Of a stretch of DNA of 64,000 nt, positions 13,446 through 18,729 are shown one piece after another. Within the stretch, counting starts at the first letter, position 1. Each line of letters opens with the position of its first letter. Position numbers and translations under genes: made by a program. This stretch comes from Gemmataceae bacterium. Lineage in GTDB: Bacteria > Planctomycetota > Planctomycetia > Gemmatales > Gemmataceae. The notes under the pieces were generated by a model. It searched no databases. It saw only the letters and a program-made list of their open reading frames with translations, and was not told the DNA's origin. Where the stretch lies: the NCBI GenBank assembly GCA_009692065.1, contig SHZY01000009.1:1-64000 (forward strand). Reading direction: 5' to 3'.

Positions 13446-15539
13446 TCACTGCTGATCCAGCGTATCGAGCCAGCGCACGGCCTCGGCAATATCTTTTGCC
13501 GTCAGGTAGTCCTTGCCGCGCTCGGGCATCTCGCGGTAGAACGCGGCATAGCGACGATCGGCCAACAGCACACGGCTTTCACTGACGTACTTGGCCAGCG
13601 GGTCAAGACTGCCGGCGGCGAGGTAGAACGACAGCCGCTGGGTCGCAACGTTGTCCTTGATCTGCCCCGTCGTGGTGGCCCCGACGGCGCAGGCGCCCTT
13701 GAAGAGATCGCGGTGATTGAACGCCAGGTGCAGCGCCATCTGGCCGCCGACACCCATGCCGTGCGCGACCACGCGCTGGTTGTCGATCGAGTAGGTCTTC
13801 ACCGTTTCGCGGGCGGCGGCAACGACGCCGTCGGCATCGCGCGGCAGCCAGTTGCCTTGCTTCTCGACGGGCATCACCAGGATGATGTGGTTCTTGCGGC
13901 AATATTCGTCCCACAGGTCGGCCCAGCCGTCGAGCTCTTCCTTCGAGTTCTTGTCCGGCGGATGCAGCCAAACGATCATCGAGTGGGCGATGTTCGGATC
14001 GTATTCCGGATAAACCCAGAGCCAATACTTGTGCTGGCCGTCTGCCGTGGTCTTTTCGATGAGCCCGGTCTCGGGTTCCGGCGGCGCCTGTTCGACGATC
14101 TTCGGGTTCTTGATGTTCGGATCGTTGATCTCAAGCTGCGCGAGCGCCTTCTTGAACGACGCTTCCAGGGGCAGCTTGTCGAGCACCGTCGCCGGCGCGC
14201 CGGGCATGGAGCCTGGCAGATCCGCGAGCGTGAGGGTCAGCGTTTCGAGCTTGTCGGCGCCTTTGCGCTTGACGGCGAGCTTGATCTCGGCGCCGGGGTA
14301 GAGGGTGTTCAGCCAATCGAGGAACTGCGAGCGGCCGCGCTTGGCGCCGGTGAATTCGGTCAGCTTGTCGTCGCTGCCGAACTTCATGATGCGATCGCCG
14401 GCTTTCAGGCCAGCCTTTTCGGCGGGGCTCTTGTCGAAGACGTGGCGGATCTCGACGCCAAGCTTCGGGTCGTCACGCATCGGCAGAATGCCGAGGAACG
14501 GCTGGGCGACGATGATCGTCTTGGCGCTCAGCTCCAGGCTCTTGATTTCCTTCACCTCGGCGCCGCGCTTGTACTTGACGGAAATCTTGTCGCCTTCGTA
14601 CTTGACGCCGAGGATGTGCTGCACCTGGGCCATGTTGACGACCGGCTTGCCTTCGATTTCGATCAGGAGATCGCCCACCTTCAGGCCCGCCTTCTCGGCA
14701 GCGCTCGCCTTCAGAATCGCGCCGATCTCCGGGGCGACGCTGTAAATATCCTGGCTCTTCATGTTGACGCCGAGGAGGCCGCGCTGGAGGTCCTTGCCTT
14801 CCTTCAGGCGCGGCAAAATGGCCATGATGTCTTCCATCGGGATGGCGAAGCCGATGCCGGAGTCGTACCATTCCAGGCCGGCGGTGTCGTCGTCCCCCTT
14901 GGGCGAGGCCGGGATAAGAATGCCCTGGATGCGGCCCTGGATATCGATGATCGGGCCGCCGTAGTTGATCGGCGAGATCTTGGCATCGGTCTGAATCGCC
15001 TTGCCCCAGATGCGGCCCAGGGCGCTGATGACGCCGACCGAGATCGCGGGGGCTTTATCCATCTTGAAGTCGAGCGCCCGGCCCAGCGCGATCGCCCACT
15101 GGCCTTCCGCCAGCTCTTTCTTCGGCACGACGGGCGCGACCGGCAGCCCCTTGGCATCGACTTTGATCAACGTCAGCATGCGCGACTTGTCGGTCGCCAC
15201 GCGCGTGGCAACCAGCGGCTCGCCTTGCTGGCCGGCGACGCGCACGAGAATCGTCGGCGGATTATTGAGGAAGTTGAACGCGCTGGTGATGACATAGCCA
15301 TCGGCGGAAACGATGACGCCGGTGGTCGGCCCGAGCGCCTTGCGGAAGACCTGCCCCTTAGGTCCCGCCACGACCATGTCGGCGCCGCCGCGCGTTTCGA
15401 TCTGTACGACGCTGGCGCCGGTCTTCCTGGCAGAGTCCTTGGTCATCTTCTCGAGCAGGTCGTTCAAATCTTCCTGAGCGCGCGCAGAAGAAATCATGAC
15501 GCTCAAAGACAGGATAGTTAGGAAGCAATACCGATACAT
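13446..15539 (-). CDS. HtrA-like pseudoprotease with two PDZ domains fused to an esterase-like domain
   Basis: 697 residues, exported (signal peptide 1 to about 21). Residues 40-245 follow the HtrA/S1C trypsin fold, but all three triad positions are changed: Phe88 in the TNNHV position (TSAFN), Met121 for the DLA Asp, and Tyr193 in INYGGP where INPGNSGGP is expected. PDZ domains lie at about 253-340 and 345-440. Residues 500-697 resemble a poly-ester or phospholipase-type alpha/beta hydrolase, but the nucleophile elbow reads GMGVG (Gly596 for Ser). Both enzymes therefore look dead, leaving a binding or scaffold role (inference). It is third in a run of HtrA-like genes. Confidence 0.8.
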   Translation of the reverse strand: MYRYCFLTILSLSVMISSARAQEDLNDLLEKMTKDSARKTGASVVQIETRGGADMVVAGPKGQVFRKALGPTTGVIVSADGYVITSAFNFLNNPPTILVRVAGQQGEPLVATRVATDKSRMLTLIKVDAKGLPVAPVVPKKELAEGQWAIALGRALDFKMDKAPAISVGVISALGRIWGKAIQTDAKISPINYGGPIIDIQGRIQGILIPASPKGDDDTAGLEWYDSGIGFAIPMEDIMAILPRLKEGKDLQRGLLGVNMKSQDIYSVAPEIGAILKASAAEKAGLKVGDLLIEIEGKPVVNMAQVQHILGVKYEGDKISVKYKRGAEVKEIKSLELSAKTIIVAQPFLGILPMRDDPKLGVEIRHVFDKSPAEKAGLKAGDRIMKFGSDDKLTEFTGAKRGRSQFLDWLNTLYPGAEIKLAVKRKGADKLETLTLTLADLPGSMPGAPATVLDKLPLEASFKKALAQLEINDPNIKNPKIVEQAPPEPETGLIEKTTADGQHKYWLWVYPEYDPNIAHSMIVWLHPPDKNSKEELDGWADLWDEYCRKNHIILVMPVEKQGNWLPRDADGVVAAARETVKTYSIDNQRVVAHGMGVGGQMALHLAFNHRDLFKGACAVGATTTGQIKDNVATQRLSFYLAAGSLDPLAKYVSESRVLLADRRYAAFYREMPERGKDYLTAKDIAEAVRWLDTLDQQ

Positions 15540-15556
15540 GGAGGATTCCTCTTTTT

Positions 15557-16916: not shown

Positions 16917-16932
16917 GGGAGGGGTTTGAAGT

Positions 16933-18729
16933 TTAGTTGCCAGCCAGCTTGTAACTTGTCACGGTGAAGGTCCCGTAATGCACGTCCTTGTAATAGACCT
17001 GCATGCGGTGCGGCAACTGCCGGCCGTCCACGGCGCGGTAATCGGAGAAGTACACCTCGCAGGGGTCCTCGTTATACTCCTGCATGCGCAGCTCCATGCC
17101 GAGCAGCTTCTGGTCGCTGCGGGCGAAGAACCACTTGACGCGATAAAGGCCCTGCTGCGTCGTCAGGACGTCGGCATCGACGCGCTGGTCGCTCCAGGTT
17201 CGCGGCGCGGCGTTGTCGAGGCGGGGCGGATAGAACGGCTCCATGCCGGCGTGCAGACATTCGGACAGATTCGCCTCGCCCTTGGTCATCAGGTGCTTCC
17301 ACACGTACAAGGCCGGCATCAGGCCGCCGGAGCCATTCGGCCTGCGGCGATCCTTGGCAGCGATGTTGTCTTTCGGGAAGATTTCGAGCGTGTCAGGAAA
17401 CGCGCCGATCTTGACGAGCACCGTCGGCGTTTCGTTGCCGTCGGCTTTCACGTCCTTGATGTCGATGGTGAACGAGCTGTCGTTGTTCGACTTGAGGAGG
17501 CGGACACCGCCATCGATGGTCCAGGCGCCACCGAGCGCGCCGAAATCGCCGTTCTTCTTGAGCCCTGCCAGCACGCGCGCCTTTTCCTGCTTGTTGAAGT
17601 AATAATTTGCGAAGCCTGCCTTGGGCTCGTAGTACTTGGCCGCGGGGCCTTGCGGGCCGCCCTTGCCCTTGATGGGCGGCGGCTGTTTCGGATCGACCTT
17701 CGGCGGCGGCTGCATCGGGTCATTCACTTCCTTGCGCTGCTGGCCCATCAGACGCACCAGGATCTCTTTCTTGGTGTCGCCGCGGCGGTATTCCAGCGGC
17801 ACGCGCCAGCCGCGCGGGAAGATGCCGACCACGTTCTTGTAGTGGTTGTCGCTCGTGATCGCCCGGCCGGCGAAGGAAGAAAGCTCGTCTTCCAGGTCGA
17901 GACCGCGGCGGGCGGCGTCGGCCTCGTCGAGGATGGCCGTGATGCGCGTCTTGCCGATGCCGAAGCCTTCCGCTTCCGTCCGCACCAGGGCGCCCAGGCT
18001 GGCGTGGTCGGAGTCCAGGCCCGCTTGCAGATGGCCCATGAAGTTCTTGATCTGGTTGATCGAGATCGCGTAGCCGACGCCCGAATTGATGCGCCCGCGC
18101 TTGTCAAACGACCCGCGGCCGTTGATGCCGATGACCTCACCCTTGAGGTTGAAGAGCGGCCCGCCCGAGTTGCCCGGATTGATCGACGTATCGATCTGGA
18201 TGCAATCGGTGTATTCGAGGAACCCGCCCCCCGCGGGCGGCTGATAGCGGTGTACGCCGGAGACGAGGCCGAACGTCACCGTCGGCGTGAAGTCGGTCGC
18301 AAGCAAAAACGGATTGCCCATGGCGATCGACCAGTCGCCTTCGCGCACCAGGTCGGAGTTCCCCATCGCGGAGAAGGGGAACTTAGCGCCATCCTTCTTC
18401 GGCAGCAGCTTGATGAGCGCGACATCGCCGACCTTGTCCCAGCCGACCAGCACGCCGTCGTAGAGAATGCCGTCGGCCAGCCCGCACTGCATGGTCGGGC
18501 CGGTCGGCTGCACGACGTGGAAGTTGGTGAGCGCGTAGCCTTCATCGTTGATGAGGACCCCCGTGCCGCCTCCCTGGCCGCCGCGCGCGAAGACCGCCAC
18601 GACGCTCGGCTTGACCCTGGCGATCACCGCGACCCGGTCGGCCTCCTGCTTCAGGACCATCGGGTGCTGCGCCGACGCGATCGACGCGACGAACAGCGCT
18701 GCCAGCAGACTGTAAAGTGCGATCCTCAT
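16933..18729 (-). CDS. HtrA/S1C-type serine protease with intact triad and C-terminal extension
   Basis: 598 residues, exported; the signal peptide MRIALYSLLAALFVASIASA fixes the start at 18729 rather than the longer frame from 18792. The protease domain (about 30-250) has His71 (TNFHVV), Asp102 (GDVALIKLL) and Ser188 (INPGNSGGP), so it should be active. A PDZ-like domain follows at about 265-345, then a Pro/Lys-rich linker (MQPPPKVDPKQPPPIKGKG) and a beta-rich C-terminal domain of about 210 residues ending TFTVTSYKLAGN, not recognised. Likely a periplasmic quality-control protease. It is the only catalytically complete member of the three-gene run. Confidence 0.9.
   Translation of the reverse strand: MRIALYSLLAALFVASIASAQHPMVLKQEADRVAVIARVKPSVVAVFARGGQGGGTGVLINDEGYALTNFHVVQPTGPTMQCGLADGILYDGVLVGWDKVGDVALIKLLPKKDGAKFPFSAMGNSDLVREGDWSIAMGNPFLLATDFTPTVTFGLVSGVHRYQPPAGGGFLEYTDCIQIDTSINPGNSGGPLFNLKGEVIGINGRGSFDKRGRINSGVGYAISINQIKNFMGHLQAGLDSDHASLGALVRTEAEGFGIGKTRITAILDEADAARRGLDLEDELSSFAGRAITSDNHYKNVVGIFPRGWRVPLEYRRGDTKKEILVRLMGQQRKEVNDPMQPPPKVDPKQPPPIKGKGGPQGPAAKYYEPKAGFANYYFNKQEKARVLAGLKKNGDFGALGGAWTIDGGVRLLKSNNDSSFTIDIKDVKADGNETPTVLVKIGAFPDTLEIFPKDNIAAKDRRRPNGSGGLMPALYVWKHLMTKGEANLSECLHAGMEPFYPPRLDNAAPRTWSDQRVDADVLTTQQGLYRVKWFFARSDQKLLGMELRMQEYNEDPCEVYFSDYRAVDGRQLPHRMQVYYKDVHYGTFTVTSYKLAGN

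Follow-up and report, generated by a model that had tools for sequence, protein, structure and literature searches.

A conserved trio of HtrA-type genes in Planctomycetota pairs one intact catalytic triad with two degenerate ones

Why would a planctomycete genome carry three HtrA-type genes side by side when only one of them encodes a complete catalytic triad? The question is raised by a 64,000-nucleotide stretch of a Gemmataceae bacterium (contig SHZY01000009.1, positions 1 to 64,000; hereafter, the window), where three consecutive, uninterrupted open reading frames lie on the minus strand. We name them A, B, and C in their 5′ to 3′ order. Gene A spans 16933..18729 (598 aa), gene B spans 15746..16840 (364 aa), and gene C spans 13446..15539 (697 aa). 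The initial annotation, made from the sequence alone, had described them as three consecutive HtrA-type frames in one direction, and its coordinates are right. All three products pass the Trypsin_2 cut-off of Pfam (27.6 bits), with 97.8 bits for A, 72.5 bits for B, and 67.2 bits for C. Each starts with a hydrophobic segment that resembles a signal peptide when judged by eye, and an envelope location of the three proteins is predicted. The spacers that flank the three genes (15552-15738, 16855-16920, and 18766-18887) each contain inverted repeats, which are imperfect and have arms 20-52 nt long.

Behind the signal peptide and the HtrA protease domain, the three proteins have different layouts. 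B ends in one PDZ domain. C, whose protease domain is without the triad, has two PDZ domains and an alpha/beta-hydrolase-like domain (residues ~490-697). A has a weakly matching PDZ domain and a C-terminal beta-rich domain (residues ~360-598). The earlier description of the trio as HtrA/PDZ proteins is therefore correct but incomplete, as it omitted the two PDZ domains and the hydrolase-like tail of C and the extra domain of A. The PDZ assignment is clear for B (PDZ_2, 41.7 bits) and C (68.7 bits, in two stretches), whereas A scores 15.5 bits, below the cut-off, and its PDZ domain is backed by the orthologues, 49 of 60 of which match PDZ_2 at E<=0.1, and by the alignment of its predicted model. 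AlphaFold predicts A with a mean pLDDT of 89.4 and C with one of 89.3, and both models align with DegQ, DegP, and Rv0983 over the protease domain and PDZ1, with Z up to 33.2 for A and 26.6 for C; in the case of A, the alignment with the protease domain and PDZ1 of DegP/DegQ covers residues 26-330. In these predicted models, A and C share the protease-plus-PDZ fold of DegP, DegQ, and DegS of the Do family. The trio differs from these proteins in its extra C-terminal domains, in the absence of the triad from B and C, and in scores far under the curated NCBIfam cut-offs. In particular, A reaches 190.3 bits with TIGR02037, the curated Do-family model, for which the cut-off is 416.2 bits, indicating that A is HtrA-like but lies outside that curated subfamily.

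The catalytic sites are placed by phmmer alignment to HtrA proteins of known structure and by comparing the profiles of A, B, and C with one another, and the residue numbers given in the initial annotation agree with both. On the minus strand of the window, A retains His71 (codon CAC, 18517..18519), Asp102 (18424..18426), and Ser188 (18166..18168, within NPGNSGGP). B retains His76 and Asp106, and the Ser position is taken by Ala196 (16253..16255, within NPGAAGG). In C, all three positions are substituted: Phe88 (15276..15278) replaces the His, Met121 (15177..15179) replaces the Asp, and Tyr193 (14961..14963) replaces the Ser in a motif of the form S-P-x-N-Y-G-G-P. In the profile-profile alignment, NPGAAGG of B and SPINYGGP of C fall exactly over NPGNSGG of A.

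Orthologues are collected by whole-genome searches and by a scan of GTDB contigs with two peptide patterns, and identical protease domains are removed before the state of the triad is counted. His, Asp, and Ser are present together in all 116 distinct orthologous protease domains of A. A complete triad is found in none of the 120 distinct domains of B, a single one of which has Ser at the nucleophile position, but with Gln in place of His, and in none of the 133 distinct domains of C. At the level of sequence, these counts strongly support the earlier proposal of one active protease accompanied by two non-cleaving relatives. They also bear on the suspicion that the substitutions arose through faulty sequencing or through a recent decay of the genes in this one genome, an explanation to which we attach practically no credence. 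The same losses occur phylum-wide, in orthologues from the same genus out to other classes, and dN/dS is well below 1 in all three genes (0.05-0.19 in close species pairs, by a simple counting method and with few changes in one pair), indicating purifying selection. Local error or decay of B and C is thereby ruled out.

The nucleophile position of C is Tyr in 133 of 133 distinct orthologous protease domains. The 80 loci from the contig scan are biased toward this residue, because one of the two search patterns contained the Tyr. Pattern-free protein and profile searches of whole genomes nevertheless give Tyr in 72 of 72 cases, with some organisms common to both sets, and column entropy marks Tyr193 as invariant within the protease domain of C. 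Such invariance, together with the HtrA fold retained in the predicted model of C, could fit the idea that C, with Tyr at the nucleophile position, or B is a cryptic enzyme acting through other residues. We judge this very improbable. No His of the C protease domain is conserved in more than 18% of the alignment rows, and C therefore shows no sign of a substitute triad that includes a His. In B, no His column exceeds 63%, and the column of His76 itself reaches 45%. For want of a well-conserved His, we reject a relocated triad in either protein. In addition, position 191 of C, where the oxyanion loop should have its Gly, is mostly V, A, T, or I, and the nucleophile column of B accommodates twelve residue types inside an otherwise near-invariant N-P-G-x-x-G-G loop. 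The invariant Asp117 of C matches the invariant Asp98 of A, four residues ahead of the catalytic Asp, which suggests that its role is probably structural and ancient, rather than that of a catalytic residue that has moved. Tyr193, which would lie at the place of the catalytic Ser, may keep the loops of the active site in one conformation or contribute to a surface for partners.

The initial annotation read the three genes as a stepwise loss of the triad. As a series from A through B to C, this reading is not supported by the phylogeny. A, B, and C each form one clade, with SH-aLRT values of 99, 99, and 99 in a 65-row tree and of 99, 100, and 56 in a 136-row tree. Each clade includes other classes, indicating that the three are paralogues older than the split of the sampled classes; a sister grouping of B and C is compatible with the data (p-AU 0.274). 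C shows no complete or partial His-Asp-Ser in any orthologue, and the His and Asp of B vary between lineages, with at least six state changes on the tree for the His and at least three for the Asp. Therefore, His76 and Asp106 in the window represent one state of several and not a step from A to C. Three separate clades and the repeated changes in B speak against a ladder of loss.

Other HtrA tandems are found as well. The genome of the window has three more tandem pairs (L066:3176-5367, L067:8537-10412, and L068:4183-7584, on contigs C63, C245, and C89), in which one gene has an intact-looking GGDSGGP site; in its partner, a PDZ domain is apparently inserted between the halves of the protease domain, the nucleophile is Cys (DCGGP), and the His site is Ser or His. 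In other classes, two tandems (L167:2-2405 in genome G198 and L168:3486-7280 in genome G078) are ordered inactive-active, with C-like genes having Val or Thr at the nucleophile position followed by an intact A-like gene. L168 also contains another C-like gene with Asp at that position.

The tail of C matches Peptidase_S9 of Pfam with 27.7 bits (cut-off 22.6), matches PHB-depolymerase-type models, and retrieves esterases among PDB sequences at E of about 1e-4. In the window, the hydrolase nucleophile position is occupied by Gly596 (13752..13754, minus strand), in the motif HGMGVGG that corresponds to GxSxG. Ser is present at this position in five of the 116 distinct orthologues having the domain; judged from these residues, both enzyme domains of C would usually be dead. 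The acid position of the hydrolase aligns at Asp646, which is kept in 115 of 136 rows, duplicates included, and the whole domain is missing from 17 C orthologues, all of other classes. The additional beta-rich domain of A, about 230 residues long, has a weak match to DUF4292 (E 0.024 in the window; E<=0.1 in 6 of 60 orthologues) and no match among PDB sequences up to E 10; it is perhaps LolA-like. Searches with Foldseek and VIA used the whole-chain models of A and C; matches to the HtrA part therefore take up the lists, and neither the extra domain of A nor the hydrolase-like tail of C surfaces in them.

The trio forms the 3′ end of a MoxR-DUF58-BatA gene run on the minus strand, and this neighborhood is kept in relatives. 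Directly upstream of A is a conserved neighbor encoding an exported protein with an NPCBM domain (18900..20084). The conserved run in the same direction (20526..37567) begins with a MoxR ATPase (36443-37567), a DUF58/VWA protein (35399-36334), and a BatA-type protein (32442-35330), continues with three large proteins without a Pfam match (29038-32337, 25303-28989, and 22594-24753), and ends with two paralogues (21461-22597 and 20526-21335). The two tandem paralogues are 85% identical over 269 aa, and relatives have a single copy at this place.

The three genes are distributed as a set. Among 392 genomes of the phylum, all three are present in 66, none in 323, A and C in one, and an A-like gene alone in two, with score cut-offs that were set after the gap between the orthologues and other HtrAs had been seen and with genomes that are not independent of one another. 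Four members of the class that have no C orthologue also have neither A nor B at the thresholds used. The same gene order is found in relatives, as A-B-C in 66 of 80 named loci, and several of the remaining loci are broken by contig ends. The gap between A and B has a median of 50 bases in relatives, six of which have a 4-base overlap instead. In five genomes, the genes are not all adjacent, yet all three are present; one of these, assembled as a single contig, has C at 6.61 Mb, A at 4.06 Mb, and B at 3.73 Mb. C is the member outside the cluster in three of the five, indicating that its tie to A is looser. In four further genomes, A and B form a single open frame with the A domains first and the B domains last, and a fifth is assigned to this group by its equal frame length. 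This is the only fusion type seen, and it is restricted to lineages distant from the window. A C orthologue at 41% identity lies on a contig labelled Bacteroidales (L110), which may be a misbinned planctomycete contig.

Taken together, the conserved order, the co-presence, the retention of all three genes when scattered, and the A-B fusions support a partnership. We therefore consider it fairly probable that A is the sole catalyst and that B and C are its obligate non-cleaving partners, which bind by means of their PDZ domains and either regulate how A assembles or complete that assembly. The trio would then be an active-plus-degenerate arrangement like that of MamE with MamO or of plant Deg7, spread over separate genes. 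A is predicted to be an exported HtrA-type serine protease and would be the only catalyst of the set, and B and C would bind substrate or signal. B would most likely join A directly in a mixed assembly, and C, with its two PDZ domains and inactive hydrolase-like domain, would most likely act as a docking or presenting subunit. The PDZ domain of A is the weakest and those of B and C are clear, which suggests a division of labor with catalysis in A and binding in B and C. Mixed assembly and substrate presentation, both raised by the initial annotation, thus appear plausible. Physical contact, an effect on the activity of A, and the substrates are inferred. Against the partner model stands the fact that operon neighbors can be co-inherited without contact. 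A broader version is possible but tentative: a phylum-wide three-subunit HtrA machine of the cell envelope that would operate with the MoxR-DUF58-BatA products, its one catalytic subunit served in substrate recognition by two obligate pseudoproteases, one marked by the Tyr and carrying a second dead enzyme domain.

The activity of HtrA proteases depends on trimer geometry. Inactive subunits could for that reason poison A, and B, C, or both might inhibit A or serve as decoys, holding substrates or filling places in the assembly of A and so keeping it off. The stronger PDZ matches do sit on the dead subunits, but the present evidence does not distinguish inhibition from activation, and we regard this reading as improbable.

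Among the closest known systems is MamE/MamO of magnetotactic bacteria, where an intact HtrA and a degenerate HtrA paralogue are likewise encoded in one gene region. MamO, which has Thr at the nucleophile position, a TauE-type transporter domain, and metal binding, and whose gene island makes magnetosomes, is itself not catalytic but is needed for proteolysis by MamE, which it activates (PMC4794232). Physical contact between MamE and MamO was not detected (PMC4794232), indicating that shared function need not imply one complex. The trio differs in having two degenerate paralogues, the Tyr signature, the hydrolase-like tail, and different neighbors, and Pfam scans reveal no TauE-like transporter domain in B or C. 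Metal binding is a separate function of MamO (PMC4794232), which invites the view that B and C have turned the HtrA scaffold to uses of their own, as binding proteins or as chaperones, within the same pathway as A but without acting on it. The extra hydrolase-like domain of C, its own strictly conserved Tyr motif, and its occasional separation from A and B fit this view, but the near-complete co-presence of the three genes in the 392 genomes and the A-B fusion in five genomes argue against it, and we consider it rather unlikely.

Plant Deg7, a clade III Deg/HtrA, resembles the planctomycete A-B fusions in combining an active and a degenerate protease domain in one chain, and the inactive domain of AtDeg7 participates in trimerisation (PMC3473262). 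Deg7 is a single polypeptide bearing four PDZ domains, unlike the trio, in which the genes are separate in the window and mostly elsewhere and the third member, C, is unfused. AtDeg6 and AtDeg16 are comparable to B and C in being HtrA paralogues in which a triad residue is lost or a domain truncated, but the passages considered do not present them as members of a constant gene set that includes an active protease (PMC3473262). Prokaryotes have long been known to possess inactive homologues of serine proteases, which made up 42 of 966 in a survey from 2008 (PMC2605481), and active/inactive HtrA pairs such as MamE/MamO and plant Deg7 are also known. No earlier description of a fixed trio with the Tyr signature is found in the literature searched, which excludes most subscription journals.

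Degenerate HtrA partners are known from few cases, and their mode of action is little understood. The trio, fixed over much of a phylum, offers a built-in contrast between a protease that is always intact, a relative that never is, and another that never is but bears an invariant residue instead. Together with natural fusions and dispersals of the genes, this contrast makes the role of pseudoprotease subunits for an HtrA enzyme directly testable. The trio also provides a handle on a conserved and apparently unstudied run of planctomycete genes whose products are predicted to function in the envelope.
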